Positions 36,854 through 43,668 of a stretch of 64,000 bases of DNA are shown here, one piece after another (positions within the stretch are counted from its first letter, which is position 1; every line of letters begins with the position of its first letter). The stretch is from assembly GCA_947502835.1 (NCBI GenBank), contig CANNBJ010000004.1, forward strand, positions 1 through 64,000. Reading direction: 5' to 3'. Origin of the DNA: Bdellovibrionales bacterium. Lineage in GTDB: Bacteria; Bdellovibrionota; UBA1018; CAIMNF01. The notes below the pieces were generated by a model. It had not been told where the DNA came from and did not search any database. It saw only the letters and a list, made by a program, of their open reading frames with translations. Position numbers and translations under genes: made by a program.

Positions 36854-37447
36854 TTAATTCCCCGAGACGAGGAGTCTCAGGGTCGCTTCATCAGCCTTGA
36901 GGTTCTCAATGGTACCTCCGGGCATGGCGTCCGGGTACATGATGTCTCCGGGGTCTTGGTTGTGATTCAGTCCGATGAAGTGGCCGAGCTCGTGGGCAAA
37001 GGTTTTTCGTGAGCTGATCCGTCGGTCGCCAAGGCAGTCCCCCGAGCAAAAGGAGTTTGTTCCGTTGATCATGACCATGGCAGCGACGGGACCATCCGCT
37101 CCGTTCTGAACAGTGGTCATTCCCACATATTTCCCGGAATGTGGCCATGGATTTTGAAAAAAGATCACATTGCCAAGAATCGCATCGGGCTTCGCCGGGT
37201 TCCCTGAATAGGGGGATCCGTATGACCACTCACCCTTCAGATCGAAGATGCGGCGACCCGCTTTTTCTTCCCAGTACCTGAAGGCGTCTTGAAGATCGTT
37301 CATCGCCTGAGCCGACTTCATGATGGTGGAATCAGTGTAGATCGGAACCGGAAGTGACTTCCACCCGAGGTGTCCGGATCCACCGCAAGCTGTGATCAAA
37401 AACAACAGGAACAACGAACCGAGACGCCATCCATGGCACATACTCAT
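36854..37447 (-). CDS. Matrixin-like zinc metalloprotease lipoprotein
   Basis: 197 residues. A lipoprotein signal ends at LITAC (C21). The zinc motif HELGHFIGLNH (HExxHxxGxxH) and the Met-turn DIMYP twelve residues later are full metzincin signatures; the short length fits matrixins (M10). An upstream block (FQNPWPHSGKYVGMTTV) may hold structural parts of the fold. It is likely a surface-anchored or periplasmic protease. AAGGGAG lies 3 nt before ATG 37447, or 9 nt before ATG 37441; either may be used. Confidence 0.85.
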   Translation of the reverse strand: MSMCHGWRLGSLFLLFLITACGGSGHLGWKSLPVPIYTDSTIMKSAQAMNDLQDAFRYWEEKAGRRIFDLKGEWSYGSPYSGNPAKPDAILGNVIFFQNPWPHSGKYVGMTTVQNGADGPVAAMVMINGTNSFCSGDCLGDRRISSRKTFAHELGHFIGLNHNQDPGDIMYPDAMPGGTIENLKADEATLRLLVSGN

Positions 37448-37528: not shown

Positions 37529-38494
37529 TCAAAAGATGTATCCCATCCCGAAGGAGTACAGGGTTGCGGATCTGCCGAGATGCCGCCCGAAATCGGTCTG
37601 GAAATAGGTTCTGCCCAACCGCCACCGGGAAAAGAGGGAGACGGTCGCCGTCAGTGATTTGTCTTGTTCGATCGAGTATCCGGCCTGGGGTGGTTCTGTG
37701 AGGCTTTGCTTGATGTACAGGACGCTCCCCCGAAGGCCGAGTTCCGAGCCCGAACTTGAAACCACTTTCGCAGCACCAAACGCAACCTTTGCGCCATAGG
37801 CCGGCACATTGGCCTGTTGATAGGTTACGAGTCCTTGTACCGCGCTGACCCCGCCGGATCCGTAAATTCCGCTAAAGTCGGCGCTGAAGGCCATGAGCTT
37901 GTTCTCATAGGAGACGCCGAACCCCGGACAGAACCCGAGGTTGGTGGTGAGCAAGGAGGTATCCTCGAAGGGGCCCTTCAGCGTGGCTTCGGTCTGCCAG
38001 CTGATGAGCTCAAGAGAGAGGCGTTTTCTGATCCGGAACACCCTTGCTTCAAGCTTGCTCAAGTGGCCCCTGACACGGTCCGAGAGTTCATCCACGCGCT
38101 TTTCTTCGTGTTCGAGCTTTTCGAGTGCTGATTTTGAAAATTGCGCCTCCTCACGGTCCCGGGCGGTCAAGTCCCGGAAGTTCCGGGTAGTTAAGATTCT
38201 CTCAGCCTGATCCACATAAGATTGGAACAAGTTGGCTTGGAAAGACTTGGAATAAAGCTTCGCGTTCACATCCTTGGAATTCGCAACTGCGTATCGAAGA
38301 GCCACCATTTCCTTCGGGTAGCGTTGATAGAGCTCCGCTCCGGGACCGGTGTAGGGCGCGAGGGTCGCCTTTCCCGTCGCACTGGGTTTCTTTCGTTGTG
38401 ATTTCGCTCCCGAGGGTCTCGGGGCGGCACCTGCAAGATTCGCTGTTGCGAGGAAGAACAGCGCAAGCGGGAAAATCCTTTTCGTTAGAGCCAT
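37529..38494 (-). CDS. Exported coiled-coil/beta-barrel-like protein
   Basis: 321 residues. Signal peptide about 1-23 (ending LAGA). A basic linker (24-45) is followed by a helical part (about 60-165) with heptads (LEKLEHEEKRVDELSDRVRG) and a C-terminal beta-rich part (about 170-321) with alternating strands, ending in GMGYIF, an aromatic end typical of outer-membrane barrels. Last gene of the six-gene leftward operon; it overlaps the gene before it by 10 bp. Family not recognised. Confidence 0.75.
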   Translation of the reverse strand: MALTKRIFPLALFFLATANLAGAAPRPSGAKSQRKKPSATGKATLAPYTGPGAELYQRYPKEMVALRYAVANSKDVNAKLYSKSFQANLFQSYVDQAERILTTRNFRDLTARDREEAQFSKSALEKLEHEEKRVDELSDRVRGHLSKLEARVFRIRKRLSLELISWQTEATLKGPFEDTSLLTTNLGFCPGFGVSYENKLMAFSADFSGIYGSGGVSAVQGLVTYQQANVPAYGAKVAFGAAKVVSSSGSELGLRGSVLYIKQSLTEPPQAGYSIEQDKSLTATVSLFSRWRLGRTYFQTDFGRHLGRSATLYSFGMGYIF

Positions 38495-39651
38495 ACATGC
38501 GTCTGGAGCAGGAGCATCCAGTTATCCTGAGTGGTTGAGTTATCATCGAAAACGCGTGTATTGAAGAGATCCGCCCTGAGTTCGATTTTTTGAACCGGAA
38601 ACCATTGGACACCGGGTCCCCATCGCAGGGCGGAGTTGTCCGAGGACAAATCCGTTTTTCCGTAATCAATATTGGCGATCAGATACAGCCCTTGGGTGGC
38701 TCTCGAAAAGGTCTGGAGCAAGCCGTACCTCGAAATCCGTCGACCCGCTCCTGAATCAGGATTTCTGTGGGTCTGTCCCAGTTCCATCAAGAGTGCGGAT
38801 CCGTCATTGAAGTTGATTCTGCCGTGGGCTGCATAGGAGGTGATCCCCACATAGTCGTTCGAAGAGCGCAATGCGGAGACCCCGATCCGGTGTTCTCCCG
38901 CATCCCGTTCCATTTGAAGGCTCAATCCCTTTTGCCTGAGGTCGCTCGCCTGGAAGAGGTTGCCCATGAATCCATGAACTGCCCCCTCGAACCCGCCGGC
39001 AAGAAAATGAGCCATCACTCCGTGCGTTTGGTCATTTTGAGCGTTGTCCGAAAAGACCCTGCTGAAGGCGATGTGTTCTGCAACACGCAGACCGTATGCC
39101 TTGTCCATGAATCCCGCGTAGATTCCGAGCTCCGGGCTGATTCTGTAGCCCACATAGTGTTCACGGGATCTGAGGCTTTTGTCGGCCTGACCCGAGGCTC
39201 TGGCCTGGCTTGACTCGGGATTGTACCCGAGCTCCCCGACCATGGTGAGGCGATCGTCGGTCAGGAATTTCAGAATCAGCTGTCCACTGGCCTGCATGGT
39301 AATCCAGGTTGATTGCGAGGCGCTTGAACCGAAGCCTTGAACCATGTGCATTCCGCGGAAATTGGCCTGTGTCCGAACATGCTCTTGTTTCGGAGTCCGG
39401 AACAGAAACCCGGAGAGAGCCCCGATCTCCTCCTCGGACCATTTGGAAGGGTAGAACGCACGGGAGGCAATTCCAGTGGCACCCACGGTGCGTCCATAGT
39501 CGGTCAGGGGGCCATTTCCCATCGGATTGAAATGGCAATTCAAGCACGAAGGATACCCATGGGCAATGAACTGGGGGTATGCGATCGCGGAATCAGGCAT
39601 CCATGTTGAAGCGAGAAGGGAAAACGCAATCCATGCAAAAAGATGTTTCAT
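38485..39651 (-). CDS. Monoheme c-type motif fused to a predicted outer-membrane barrel
   Basis: 388 residues from the ATG that overlaps the stop before it (ATGA). Signal peptide about 1-24 (ending AIA). Then the single heme-binding motif CLNCH (residues about 34-38), with a following PMGNGPLTDYG. The rest (about 70-388) has alternating polar/hydrophobic strands, many Gly and aromatic residues, and ends THVWL, as a barrel porin does. The combination suggests a porin carrying one heme at its periplasmic mouth, i.e. electron transfer at the outer membrane. This is inference from pattern; porin-cytochrome systems usually use separate proteins. Confidence 0.75.
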   Translation of the reverse strand: MKHLFAWIAFSLLASTWMPDSAIAYPQFIAHGYPSCLNCHFNPMGNGPLTDYGRTVGATGIASRAFYPSKWSEEEIGALSGFLFRTPKQEHVRTQANFRGMHMVQGFGSSASQSTWITMQASGQLILKFLTDDRLTMVGELGYNPESSQARASGQADKSLRSREHYVGYRISPELGIYAGFMDKAYGLRVAEHIAFSRVFSDNAQNDQTHGVMAHFLAGGFEGAVHGFMGNLFQASDLRQKGLSLQMERDAGEHRIGVSALRSSNDYVGITSYAAHGRINFNDGSALLMELGQTHRNPDSGAGRRISRYGLLQTFSRATQGLYLIANIDYGKTDLSSDNSALRWGPGVQWFPVQKIELRADLFNTRVFDDNSTTQDNWMLLLQTHVWL

Positions 39652-40046
39652 GGGATATTTTCGATCCAAGATCTCAGAATCTGATATTCGGCATCGGTGA
39701 TGTCCGCACCGATGGGCATGTTGCTGTTTGAATCATTGCCGAACCTCCGCAGTCTCCGGATGAGCGTGGAATTGTCAGGGTTGCCCTTCACAACCTGGCC
39801 TGTATCGACCCATTTCTGGCTCGTGTTCAGGGATGAAAAGTAGTCATGATAGGGGTGACACCAGATGCATTTTGTGTCGAGGACATTGAATGCTTGTTCA
39901 AAATTGGGATCGTTTGGATCACCGGTGAGCACGCGATATGCATCTGCGTCGTTGCTGTTGGAATTGTAATTTGCACAGGAGCCCGAAAAAACAACCAGGA
40001 TGAATACAAAAAGAATGGATGACATCCGTCGTGTTCCGGAGTTCAT
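39648..40046 (-). CDS. Monoheme cytochrome c lipoprotein-like
   Basis: 132 residues. N-terminal hydrophobic segment followed by SGSC (C24), a possible lipoprotein site. The heme motif is CIWCH (about 60-64), and MPIGADITDAEYQILRSWIENIP at the end is the methionine-containing closing helix of small cytochromes c. It should sit in the periplasm, tethered to a membrane, and pass electrons. It is joined by 4-bp overlaps to YceI before it and to the CXXCH-barrel gene after it. Confidence 0.85.
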   Translation of the reverse strand: MNSGTRRMSSILFVFILVVFSGSCANYNSNSNDADAYRVLTGDPNDPNFEQAFNVLDTKCIWCHPYHDYFSSLNTSQKWVDTGQVVKGNPDNSTLIRRLRRFGNDSNSNMPIGADITDAEYQILRSWIENIP

Positions 40047-40537
40047 TTGTTCGAAACCTCCATTTGCGTTTCGATATTCACTTCATCCAGAACCGAGATA
40101 CCGAGATACTTCTCGGGGGGAAGGTTGAAGAGTTTTGCGCTGGTCTTGATGTTCGCTTGAACACGGCTGCCTTCCTCCTTGTAGGAGATTTCGACCGGCT
40201 TCTTTACTCCGTTCACTTCAAGGACTCCTGTCCCGCGTCCACCCGACGCCTTGAGGTCCGTAAGGATGATTTTCTGGATGGAGGGATGTTTCAGGTATTT
40301 CCAGAAGTGTTCATCGCGCAAATTGATGCCTGTCTTGAAGGTATCAATGGTGACGCTCAGTTTTTCCGAGGTGAAGTTTGCGCCGTCCCGGATCACGGTG
40401 CCCTTCAGTTTTTCGCTCTTGGCTTTGAATGAACCCGCAGGACTCAGTTTCACATACACAGTGATGGAGCCATCCGCCCAAGATGCGGATGCACCCATAA
40501 ACGCGGCAATAAACAGGCATTTTTTTACAAATTCCAT
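40043..40537 (-). CDS. YceI-family periplasmic protein
   Basis: 164 residues. Signal peptide about 1-21 (ending SWA), then the lipocalin-like YceI barrel with the NLRDEHFWKYLKHP motif. Known members bind polyisoprenoids or quinone-like chains; some accompany cytochromes b561. GAGGGGG lies 5 nt before the ATG. Its place just upstream of two CXXCH proteins suggests a carrier for a quinone-like electron donor; this is inference. Confidence 0.92.
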   Translation of the reverse strand: MEFVKKCLFIAAFMGASASWADGSITVYVKLSPAGSFKAKSEKLKGTVIRDGANFTSEKLSVTIDTFKTGINLRDEHFWKYLKHPSIQKIILTDLKASGGRGTGVLEVNGVKKPVEISYKEEGSRVQANIKTSAKLFNLPPEKYLGISVLDEVNIETQMEVSNK

Positions 40538-40577
40538 AAGTTCCCCCTCGAAAAAAAGCGTATCCCCCGGACAAATC

Positions 40578-41162
40578 TCAGTCCAGACCCCCGAACACCC
40601 AGTGCAGGTAGATCGACGGAATGATCATGTTGCGAGTGTAGCTCACAACCGATGTGGCGCCCGTCGAATCAGTGGCACTGGAGTAACTTCCCAAATGATA
40701 CAGAAGTGAAATCCCGGGGGAAAGGTTTTTAAACACCTCGGGTGCGAAAGTCAGCTCGAATTCAAAGCCGCTCCCGCTGAGCTTGGTGACGGTGCCGGTG
40801 TCGGCGGTTTGGGTAGCATTATGGACGGGGAGGTATGTGGTAGTGAAGCTCGTCCAGCGATTTTTCGTGAGAAAGATCCCGAATCTGGGACCCATCTCCA
40901 GGCCCGTAATTTTGGCGGTTCCAGCCGATCCCTCTTGCGAGTCGGCATGGGTGGTTGTTTTCCAGCCGATGAAAAAACGCTTTGGAATGCTCGCACCCAC
41001 CGAGATCGAAAGATTGTATTTCGAATAGGACTCGTTGCTTGCGGTCTTCGACTGCGAATCCAGATAGAACAGGTGATTGTCGATGATCAGACCCGCATGA
41101 GCGAGTGCAGGAATCAGTAAACTGAATCCCAAAATCCCCGACAGCAGCCTAGGTTTCCGCAA
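40578..41162 (-). CDS. Exported beta-barrel-like protein
   Basis: 194 residues if TTG 41162 is the start. This start is chosen because AAGGA lies 8 nt before it and a signal peptide then begins at once (about 1-22, ending AHA); an ATG at 41228 would place 22 polar residues before the signal. The mature part has alternating strands (TTTHADSQ, FTTTYLPVH, GISLLYHLGSY) and ends SIYLHWVFGG, a barrel-like pattern of 8-10 strands. Not assigned to a family. It overlaps the hydroxylase gene by 14 bp. Confidence 0.68.
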   Translation of the reverse strand: MRKPRLLSGILGFSLLIPALAHAGLIIDNHLFYLDSQSKTASNESYSKYNLSISVGASIPKRFFIGWKTTTHADSQEGSAGTAKITGLEMGPRFGIFLTKNRWTSFTTTYLPVHNATQTADTGTVTKLSGSGFEFELTFAPEVFKNLSPGISLLYHLGSYSSATDSTGATSVVSYTRNMIIPSIYLHWVFGGLD

Positions 41163-42384
41163 GCGCTCGATCCTTTTCGCCCATTCCAAACCAGACCCAG
41201 AGAATCGAGGCTGCTGATACTGTGGCAAGGCTCGCAGTCCAGAGGAAGGAGAAGTGGTGGATGTTGAAGAGCACGTTCAGGCTCAAGAAGGTGAGGCAAA
41301 TCCTGAAAGTTTCGCCCATCCTGGCCCAAGGCTTTGATTCGAGGATTGCAGCCCACAACGTGACTCCAAACCACAGGAGCATGGACACCCAGATTTTTTC
41401 TGAAATCCTGAGAGGGGATTTGTCATTGATCACGAATTGCAGAACTCCCATGAAAACGGCGAGATTTGCGAGCAAATAGCTCGTGGATCCCGGGATTGCC
41501 TTGGTGACGAACTTGATCTGGTCCTTTGCGCAGGTGTGAGGACTTTTGTTCTCGTAGGGGGGAAGATTGCGCGGGCGCCATCCTGGAGGCATGAACCAGA
41601 GTTTGATCTTGTCCACAAAGTGAGTCGCCTGCTTCATGTCGTTCCAAAGCACCATGAACCAATGGCAGTTGAGATAGGTTGGATCCCAAGATTTCGGATG
41701 GATGGTGATCCCGTAATACACCTCTTCCACCTGATGCTGAAAGGTTCCAAACAAGCGATCCCAGATGATGAAGGTTCCACCGTAGTTTTTGTCCCAGTAC
41801 ACGCGGTTTGCGCCATGGTGAACCTGGTGGTGATAAGGCGTATTCAGCCAAGAATCGATCCACTTGGGGAATTTCCCGACCACGCGTGTGTGGGGGACGA
41901 ATTGGTAAACGAGGTTCGCGGCAACAACAGGGATGATCATTTCAGGTGAAAAGCCCATCCAAGCAAGCGGCCAGTAAAAGAGAAAGGAGGCCGCCCTTTG
42001 GGTAAAGCTCGTGCGCATCGCAACCGCATAATTGAGTTCCTCGGCGGAATGGTGTGTGGCGTGTGCGGCCCAGAGAAAGTTGATCCGGTGGCCGGCTCTG
42101 TGGAACCAGTAAAACAGGATGTCGCTTCCGAGGTAGCAAAGTACGTAGTTCAGGAGGGTCGGTTCTAATTTTGTGAGCGAGTATTTTTCGTAGATGAGTC
42201 CGTAGACGTAGAACACGGCCACCGACACGGCGACATTCACGCACTGGGCGATGATCATCGTGCCCATTCCCATCAGGCTGTCTTGGAAGGAGTAGTATCC
42301 GTTTTTCTTCCGGATGCAGTAAATGAATTCGGAAAGAGTAAGGAGGAGTACGGCAGGAGCAACAATTGCGTATACATTGATCAT
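41149..42384 (-). CDS. Fatty acid hydroxylase family, AGMO (TMEM195)-like
   Basis: 411 residues, membrane di-iron enzyme of the sterol desaturase superfamily. The eight-histidine clusters are present: HRAGH, HATHH, and HHQVHH. The wording around them (WAAHATHHSAEELNYA, NTPYHHQVHHGANRVYWDKNYGG, IIWDRLFGTF) is close to alkylglycerol monooxygenase, and so is the extra C-terminal block of about four membrane helices (about 290-400). AGMO cleaves ether lipids with tetrahydrobiopterin. It is first in the operon; -10 TAGGAT ends 6 nt before the ATG, with no ribosome site. Confidence 0.88.
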   Translation of the reverse strand: MINVYAIVAPAVLLLTLSEFIYCIRKKNGYYSFQDSLMGMGTMIIAQCVNVAVSVAVFYVYGLIYEKYSLTKLEPTLLNYVLCYLGSDILFYWFHRAGHRINFLWAAHATHHSAEELNYAVAMRTSFTQRAASFLFYWPLAWMGFSPEMIIPVVAANLVYQFVPHTRVVGKFPKWIDSWLNTPYHHQVHHGANRVYWDKNYGGTFIIWDRLFGTFQHQVEEVYYGITIHPKSWDPTYLNCHWFMVLWNDMKQATHFVDKIKLWFMPPGWRPRNLPPYENKSPHTCAKDQIKFVTKAIPGSTSYLLANLAVFMGVLQFVINDKSPLRISEKIWVSMLLWFGVTLWAAILESKPWARMGETFRICLTFLSLNVLFNIHHFSFLWTASLATVSAASILWVWFGMGEKDRALAET

Positions 42385-42441: not shown

Positions 42442-43347
42442 CTAAAGATCCCGGAAAAACGGCCCCTCGGGGGTGGGTACCGCTCGAGCGTCAAAAAGAA
42501 CCCCTGTGCTCTTCTTGATTCGAAGAAGGCTTGCGGGCCACGGGAACTTCCGGTTTGCCCCGGTGATCAAATCTTGTGCTGCAAGCTCGGTCCAGAGATG
42601 CATTTTTTCAGGATCCCAAAAGTCCACCGGGAATCCGCCCCGGGAGAGATCTTGATCCCAGCGGGAGGGGATCGCAGAAAGAATCTTGAGAATCTTCACG
42701 CGTCTTCCGGTGAGTGGTCCTCCCACCCATTTTCGCGGAACGACTCTGTAGGTGCGCCAATTTTCCTCAAATTCGGGTGCTTGCAGTCCGGCAAGTTCCA
42801 AAAAGCTCATGCCGTAGGCGCTGCAGCCCGCGCTTTGGCGAAGCAGCGGTCTTGCGTTCAAGCCCGCATAGATTTTGTGGTAGCCGAGTCGCTCATATTC
42901 GCTCAGGTATTCGGTGAGTCTGGAGCAGGTGGTGGTCGAAATATTAAACCTTACAAAATTGCTTCTTCCGGTTTCAAACATGGCAGCAAGGTCTTTTTTG
43001 ATGAACTCCTGGGAATCGAATTTGCCCCTGTAATTCTTGAACACGACCCCCATCCCGTAGCCTTCGAGGAAGATCGCCCTCCTTTCCTCGCTGTTCCCGG
43101 TAGAGGTGACGCCCGAGTAGGTGAGCGAGTTCCCGCATTGCAGTTCCACGAAAACATGCCCGATGGAATGGCGGGCGCCACCCGGAACCTTGGCCACCTG
43201 GTTTCGAAGGGCTGAAAGAGTGAGGCTTCTCGGGCTCGTCCAGCGAGTCGGTGTGGGGGCTTTGATGAAATGCAGGGTGATTTGGTCGGAATAAGCTCTT
43301 GGGCTCAGGAACGGGGAAAGCAAAAGAATCACGAAAAAAGCGCGCAT
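42442..43347 (-). CDS. Exported protein, possibly papain-like fold
   Basis: 301 residues from ATG 43347. Signal peptide about 1-21 (ending RAYS). Not assigned to a family. A His in SIGHVFVEL and a later Cys in SAGCSAYGMSFLEL are arranged as in permuted NlpC/P60 or LRAT-like hydrolases (His first, Cys later), but this is a guess. Five or so cysteines and many aromatic residues fit an exported enzyme. -10 TAGCAT ends 7 nt before the ATG and no ribosome site is present. Confidence 0.68.
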   Translation of the reverse strand: MRAFFVILLLSPFLSPRAYSDQITLHFIKAPTPTRWTSPRSLTLSALRNQVAKVPGGARHSIGHVFVELQCGNSLTYSGVTSTGNSEERRAIFLEGYGMGVVFKNYRGKFDSQEFIKKDLAAMFETGRSNFVRFNISTTTCSRLTEYLSEYERLGYHKIYAGLNARPLLRQSAGCSAYGMSFLELAGLQAPEFEENWRTYRVVPRKWVGGPLTGRRVKILKILSAIPSRWDQDLSRGGFPVDFWDPEKMHLWTELAAQDLITGANRKFPWPASLLRIKKSTGVLFDARAVPTPEGPFFRDL

Positions 43348-43354
43348 TTCATTG

Positions 43355-43383
43355 ATGCTAAAGACCTTCAATTTGCCTGTGCA
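43355..43383 (-). promoter_or_regulatory. Predicted leaderless promoter of the 42442-43347 gene
   Basis: Minus strand: -35 TGCACA (43378-43383), 17-nt spacer, -10 TAGCAT (43355-43360), 7 nt to the ATG. Confidence 0.45.
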
Positions 43384-43668
43384 GATCATATTTATTTGAC
43401 GTGGGTGGAGTCGGCAGTCTTTGCCGGTGGGGCGTCCCTTGGGGTAGGGAGCGCGAACACCCTTGCACGGGGTGGCTTCCCTGAAAAGTCAATTCTTTTC
43501 ATTGGGCCTGGAAGGGTTCCTTGTGCATTCGAGTTGCGTCACAAACAAAAATCCCCGATCCGGAAACTCTCTCTCCCATTTGCCATTCGGTTGTGATGAA
43601 CTATGGAACAGGAAGGAGTGGTAGTGCAGGAGCCCTTCTGGCAAAACCCCGCACTACCGGATCTCATC
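43384..43668. other. Intergenic region and leader upstream of lon
   Basis: This stretch of about 285 bp lies between divergent genes. No small gene with a ribosome site is evident. Weak promoter candidates for lon are TTGCCA-N16-TATGGA (43580-43607) and a heat-shock-like GTTGCG-N14-CCCCGATC (about 43536-43563). Neither is convincing. Confidence 0.4.
43620..43658 (+). promoter_or_regulatory. Inverted repeat in the lon leader
   Basis: Perfect 8-bp arms GGTAGTGC (43620-43627) and GCACTACC (43651-43658), 23 nt apart, ending 10 nt before the ATG at 43669. It could be an operator or an mRNA hairpin that hides the start of lon. It is unlike CIRCE or HspR sites. Confidence 0.45.

Follow-up and report, generated by a model that had tools for sequence, protein, structure and literature searches.

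Most of what is known of fused cytochrome-porins comes from Cyc2, a marker of iron oxidation. In the definition of Keffer et al., Cyc2 joins a monoheme cytochrome to a 16-strand porin and carries the motif AXPXFAR[Q/K][T/Y] before CXXCH and PXL four residues after it (PMC8406198). In the MtrCAB and Pcc systems, instead, a separate barrel of 26 strands has a multiheme cytochrome threaded through it. For homologues of the YceI protein studied here, ubiquinone-8 or other isoprenoids are known as ligands (PMC9113575). The YceI protein BcnA and the cytochrome b561 LcoA are genetically linked, in some cases as a fusion, and counter lipid peroxyl radicals (PMC9113575).

The locus compared with these systems here lies in a 64,000-nucleotide stretch of DNA from a Bdellovibrionales bacterium (the whole stretch is called the window), in which a run of six genes had been predicted to form an electron-transfer operon:

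AGMO, 41149-42384, - strand: AGMO-like FA_hydroxylase membrane protein (PF04116, 3.4e-27), outside the conserved core
B1, 40578 to about 41162, - strand: exported, putative barrel-like protein with a probable TTG start; accessory, clade-restricted
YceI, 40043-40537, - strand: periplasmic lipocalin-like protein of the YceI family (PF04264, above cut-off)
CytLip, 39648-40046, - strand: putative monoheme cytochrome c lipoprotein with a lipobox Cys, CXXCH and a distal MP motif
CytBar, 38485-39651, - strand: signal peptide, N-terminal CXXCH domain (residues 36-40) and 16-strand porin barrel
B2, 37529-38494, - strand: signal peptide, helical region (about residues 53-150) and C-terminal 8-strand barrel

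The nearest known system is Cyc2, the fused monoheme cytochrome-porin, which the original prediction had overlooked. Its statement that the set does not match MtrABC or Pcc was upheld, both heme count and barrel size being different. Like those systems, the locus combines a (putative) heme protein with an outer-membrane barrel; identity with them was rejected, as CytLip and CytBar carry one CXXCH each and that of CytBar is fused to a barrel of 16 strands.

Gene organisation

All six ORFs were found where they had been placed, on the - strand and reading leftward. The ATGA overlaps of 4 bp reported on both sides of CytLip were seen at the YceI/CytLip and CytLip/CytBar junctions, and CytBar and B2 overlap by 10 bp. 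The description of the run as tightly overlapping does not hold throughout, because a 40-bp gap parts B1 from YceI. The likely start of B1 is a TTG at 41162, from which the protein would begin with a signal peptide and the gene would overlap AGMO by 14 bp; both the signal peptide and an AAGGA element, read from the sequence, agree with this start. Judged by eye, signal peptides are present in B1, YceI, CytBar and B2 and a lipobox-like end in CytLip, while AGMO is by sequence an integral membrane protein. A promoter and terminator scan gave signals no higher than in shuffled sequences, and a plasmid search gave no match.

In Pfam, scores above cut-off were obtained only for AGMO (FA_hydroxylase, 3.4e-27) and YceI (4.4e-8; 34.1 bits against PF04264, gathering score 23.7), with no such match for B1, CytLip, CytBar or B2; in NCBIfam none of the six ORFs matched above cut-off. 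AGMO scored 12.7 bits (0.13) against the AGMP_C domain, under its cut-off of 28.3. CytLip had a sub-threshold match to PSCyt1, and resembles PSCyt1 and cytochrome cbb3-III-like small cytochromes c in its single CXXCH and C-terminal MP motif, but differs from them in falling under the Pfam cut-off, in its predicted lipid anchor and in a conserved Y/F-N-S-N segment after the lipobox Cys.

Two further genes border the run. A Matrixin-like, lipoprotein-like metalloprotease (36854-37447 in the window) adjoins the module here and in several genomes of the same genus, downstream of B2 in two genomes and upstream of YceI in three. Upstream of AGMO, on the same strand and 57 bp away, lies a gene (42442-43389) with no Pfam or NCBIfam match, provisionally labelled DUF4105; it stays next to AGMO in two same-genus genomes.

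Predicted structures of CytBar and B2

CytBar has 388 aa, with a single N-terminal CXXCH behind the signal peptide. The AlphaFold2 model (pLDDT 91.2, pTM 0.85) places helices around CXXCH (residues 26-78), followed by 16 strands between residues 92 and 387, in agreement with the barrel predicted earlier for the CXXCH protein. Foldseek matched the model to 16-strand porins (E 8.5e-12), Vibrio OmpT, Omp32 and OprP among them, while a family profile searched against solved structures gave weak matches to OmpK36 and none to a heme protein. B2, originally put forward as a second barrel-like protein, was indeed modelled (pLDDT 89.7) with a helical part of about 100 residues and, after it, an 8-strand barrel whose structure matches the Ail/OmpA/OmpX class.

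In a broad set of 40 CytBar homologues, with identity to the window protein down to 19-20%, the invariant residues are C36, C39, H40, G45, G47, Y52, R54, M119, G180, H193 and G321, and the family has a motif of its own, C-x-x-C-H-x(4)-G-x-G-x-L-x-x-Y-G-R. The two Cys and the His of CXXCH are invariant in these 40 and in 78 closer homologues, so a chance occurrence of the motif can be dismissed. D183, G187 and H193 are likewise invariant in the 78, with H193 at 100% and G187 at 97% in the broad set. H193 sits in the loop that connects strand 5 to strand 6. As loop lengths alternate in the manner of porins, residues 183-208 of the model would by analogy be the inward-folding loop L3, and an invariant His in L3 makes H193 a candidate distal heme ligand. 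M119, in strand 2, was thought less likely in that role because by its parity it belongs to the hydrophobic face, which points outward.

Since the barrel resembles ordinary diffusion porins and its conserved polar residues alternate along the strands, CytBar might be a solute porin in which a structural or sensory heme gates or stabilises the plug, with neighbours serving envelope maintenance. This is considered very improbable: repeated pairing with a second cytochrome c and YceI, and the association with oxidase genes (both below), would be unexpected for a plain porin.

Conservation of the gene neighbourhood

Scanning of a genome collection yielded 80 CytBar loci besides the window, all from the near subfamily. 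By record title these were mostly Bdellovibrionales, Bacteriovoracaceae, Halobacteriovorax or Oligoflexia; a few carried vague or evidently mislabelled MAG names, and the contigs were all of Bdellovibrionota type. Clustering of neighbours placed a B2-family gene directly downstream of CytBar at 76 of the 80 loci (77 of 81 including the window), and YceI and CytLip were found within 5 kb of CytBar at 57 and 59 loci, respectively. YceI was followed directly by CytLip on the same strand at 46 of the 80, with 4-bp overlaps in 22 of the YceI-CytLip pairs, and in the CytLip homologues at these 46 loci the lipobox Cys, CXXCH and the MP motif recur. All three genes were contiguous in the order YceI-CytLip-CytBar at 21 of the 80 loci; elsewhere the YceI-CytLip pair often lies divergently, across from CytBar-B2, and in many loci this pair is divergent or separate from CytBar. 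AGMO, in contrast, was within 5 kb at only 2 of 80 loci (adjacent in the nearest relatives only) and B1 at 1 of 80, with homologous fragments in only two same-genus genomes. The conserved unit therefore consists of four genes, YceI, CytLip, CytBar and B2. The co-occurrence looked for in relatives thus exists, and for these four genes it spans the phylum; the six-gene version of the operon was rejected, as AGMO and B1 are seldom found with the others and are regarded as local additions.

In a hand count of 30 near genomes, YceI was present within 3 kb at about 24 of 32 CytBar-family loci. These genomes hold 1-6 YceI matches each, and chance pairing would therefore be expected well under once. 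Among members of the wider family, YceI is often the gene immediately upstream of CytBar, in some cases preceded by a diheme cytochrome, and the cytochrome partner of CytBar is often diheme or was not found. At one locus (L042:9716-10654) a single gene immediately upstream of the CytBar homologue encodes a fusion of YceI and a lipoprotein-like CXXCH cytochrome.

This linkage, with its one fusion, recalls BcnA-LcoA (PMC9113575), and the locus could accordingly serve protection of the envelope against lipid radicals or through quinone redox chemistry, YceI collecting oxidised lipid or carrying ubiquinone, the two cytochromes passing the electrons on and the porin acting as their outlet or inlet. 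The AGMO-like lipid hydroxylase in the window would suit such a lipid theme, but AGMO is not conserved in the CytBar neighbourhood. Further, the cytochromes here are predicted to be monoheme, c-type and outer-membrane or lipid-anchored and are accompanied by a porin, whereas BcnA-LcoA has a cytochrome b561 and no outer-membrane component; no b561 was found by Pfam among the six genes of the run, and an aldehyde reductase (PsrA) was not seen next to the core genes. A protective role is thus judged unlikely.

Several loci depart from the common arrangement. The locus of one same-genus genome (L064, G008:C85) lacks YceI, CytLip and the CytBar heme half and has a split B2, while AGMO and the flanks are kept, which has the look of decay or mis-assembly. 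Some loci, exemplified by L115:6933-7799 (PF01252, 7e-18), encode a signal-peptidase-II-like protein directly upstream of CytBar, and at L129, L133 and L136 it is apparently fused in frame to CytBar, in open frames of about 650 aa that contain an internal signal-peptide-like stretch. Recurrent neighbour sets (L115:3396-6930, L098:4342-7780, L090:10009-14021) may form a second linked module; they comprise an RRDFL-type (Tat-like) exported protein of about 490-580 aa and a one-CXXCH protein of about 390-480 aa, often with a lipoprotein of about 230-270 aa, and those scanned gave no Pfam match above cut-off.

Distribution in Bdellovibrionota and association with oxidase genes

Relatives of CytBar were found in 40 of 77 genomes by a single-protein search, and a profile search detected the family in 197 of 290 genomes of the phylum (165 of 235 of good quality); these counts come from MAG-rich data in which related genomes are included. 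CytBar occurred in 196 of 279 genomes positive for COX1 (heme-copper oxidase) versus 1 of 11 negative ones (Fisher p about 7e-5, ignoring phylogeny and MAG gaps), the sole COX1-negative genome with CytBar being a MAG that is 86% complete. The genome from which the window derives carries COX1 and a cytochrome-c assembly gene. The association fits a coupling of CytBar to the aerobic chain.

Comparison with Cyc2

CytBar shares with Cyc2 of Acidithiobacillus, Mariprofundus and Gallionellaceae a signal peptide, one N-terminal CXXCH, a 16-strand barrel and a similar length, its 388 aa and C-terminal barrel fusion agreeing with the Cyc2 length criterion (at least 365 aa) and architecture. Both published motifs differ, however. 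The window sequence before CXXCH (AYPQFIAHGYPSCLNCH) departs from AXPXFAR[Q/K][T/Y], which is also missing from the aligned members examined, and PXL is not found four residues after CXXCH in the window, where the sequence is CHFNPMGNGPLTDYGR; CytBar has instead its own motif and the invariant His in the putative L3. It is also tied to other genes, YceI, CytLip and B2, where Cyc2 is tied to Cyc1, rusticyanin and oxidase genes. On both motifs, and despite the agreeing architecture, CytBar was rejected as a member of Cyc2.

A motif search of the phylum supplied Cyc2-like comparators, which are not characterised Cyc2 proteins: cytochrome-porins with the published AXPXFAR at L153:1432-2721 and L154:370-1614, standing apart from the CytBar family and showing CHxxxPKLN. 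A homology search with one Cyc2-like protein gave matches in 14 of 241 genomes, mostly short and weak and over the cytochrome segment. Between CytBar and the Cyc2-like proteins of the phylum (again, not characterised Cyc2), blastp gave E 0.015 and hhalign probabilities of 85 and 53; neither program detected full-length homology, and the alignment is meaningful over the cytochrome segment only. An A-x-P in CytBar lies 12 residues before the first heme Cys, in the same register as in the Cyc2-like proteins, and a distant common origin of the two cytochrome segments is plausible.

The shared register, length class, single N-terminal CXXCH and 16-strand barrel, together with the association with COX1, could point to CytBar being a divergent Cyc2, that is, an Fe(II) oxidase feeding electrons inward to a terminal oxidase. 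Given that both motifs are absent, that the hhalign probabilities rest on the cytochrome segment and that none of the published iron-oxidation partner genes was seen near CytBar, this is regarded as improbable; moreover, CytBar is present in about 70% of good-quality genomes of a phylum in which few members are expected to oxidise iron. Sequence and model together suggest that CytBar works like a cytochrome-porin, yet it is no Cyc2 by the published definition.

A proposed envelope electron-transfer module

With a barrel predicted, the heme motif invariant and the four-gene neighbourhood conserved, the findings that would have spoken against the original interpretation did not arise, and it is supported in part, AGMO and B1 falling outside the system. 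YceI, CytLip, CytBar and B2 probably encode an envelope electron-transfer module (probability somewhat below 0.6), best read as a monoheme outer-membrane electron conduit or oxidase. Family memberships, predicted folds, the invariant heme motif, the neighbourhood and the oxidase-gene association are computational results; heme attachment, outer-membrane location, physical contact, and electron flow with its direction and substrate are what we infer. The association with COX1, the ligands of YceI proteins and the BcnA-LcoA precedent lead us to favour one-electron exchange, with radical protection as the main rival. The loci where YceI-CytLip does not adjoin CytBar, the diheme or missing cytochrome partners in the broader family and the lack of published iron-oxidation partner genes near CytBar weigh against the module.

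In the proposed mechanism, the N-terminal monoheme domain of CytBar would plug or enter the barrel from the periplasmic side, and a small soluble donor or acceptor could, in the manner of Cyc2, pass into the pore and give one electron to the heme or take one from it. One heme cannot span the membrane, so that transmembrane transfer would require entry of the substrate into the pore; otherwise none takes place. CytLip may be the electron relay that links CytBar with the part of the respiratory chain in the periplasm, and YceI may bind an isoprenoid quinone or membrane lipid, giving or taking redox equivalents at the membrane surface. B2 would be an outer-membrane accessory, probably scaffolding or stabilising CytBar. 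A more far-reaching and tentative version, on balance doubtful, is a phylum-wide outer-membrane redox system in which the L3 His holds the heme in the pore and YceI is wired in through the tethered cytochrome.

In the open-access literature searched, no paper was found joining YceI, a c-type cytochrome, an operon and a porin, nor one joining YceI, cytochrome c and Bdellovibrio; judged on that literature, the four-gene module is probably a route not previously described in Bdellovibrionota. CytBar would represent a second, sequence-distinct family with the architecture of Cyc2, found in roughly two thirds of the Bdellovibrionota genomes sampled. Such a family, tied to YceI, would widen the known single-heme redox routes at the outer membrane, add a cytochrome partner for the widespread YceI proteins and caution against naming iron oxidisers from architecture alone. 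Many Bdellovibrionota are predators and some are genetically tractable, and many CytBar-bearing relatives are open to testing. In the far-reaching version given above, the CytBar system could trade electrons with the cell's surroundings or, where the bacterium is a predator, with the envelope of its prey.
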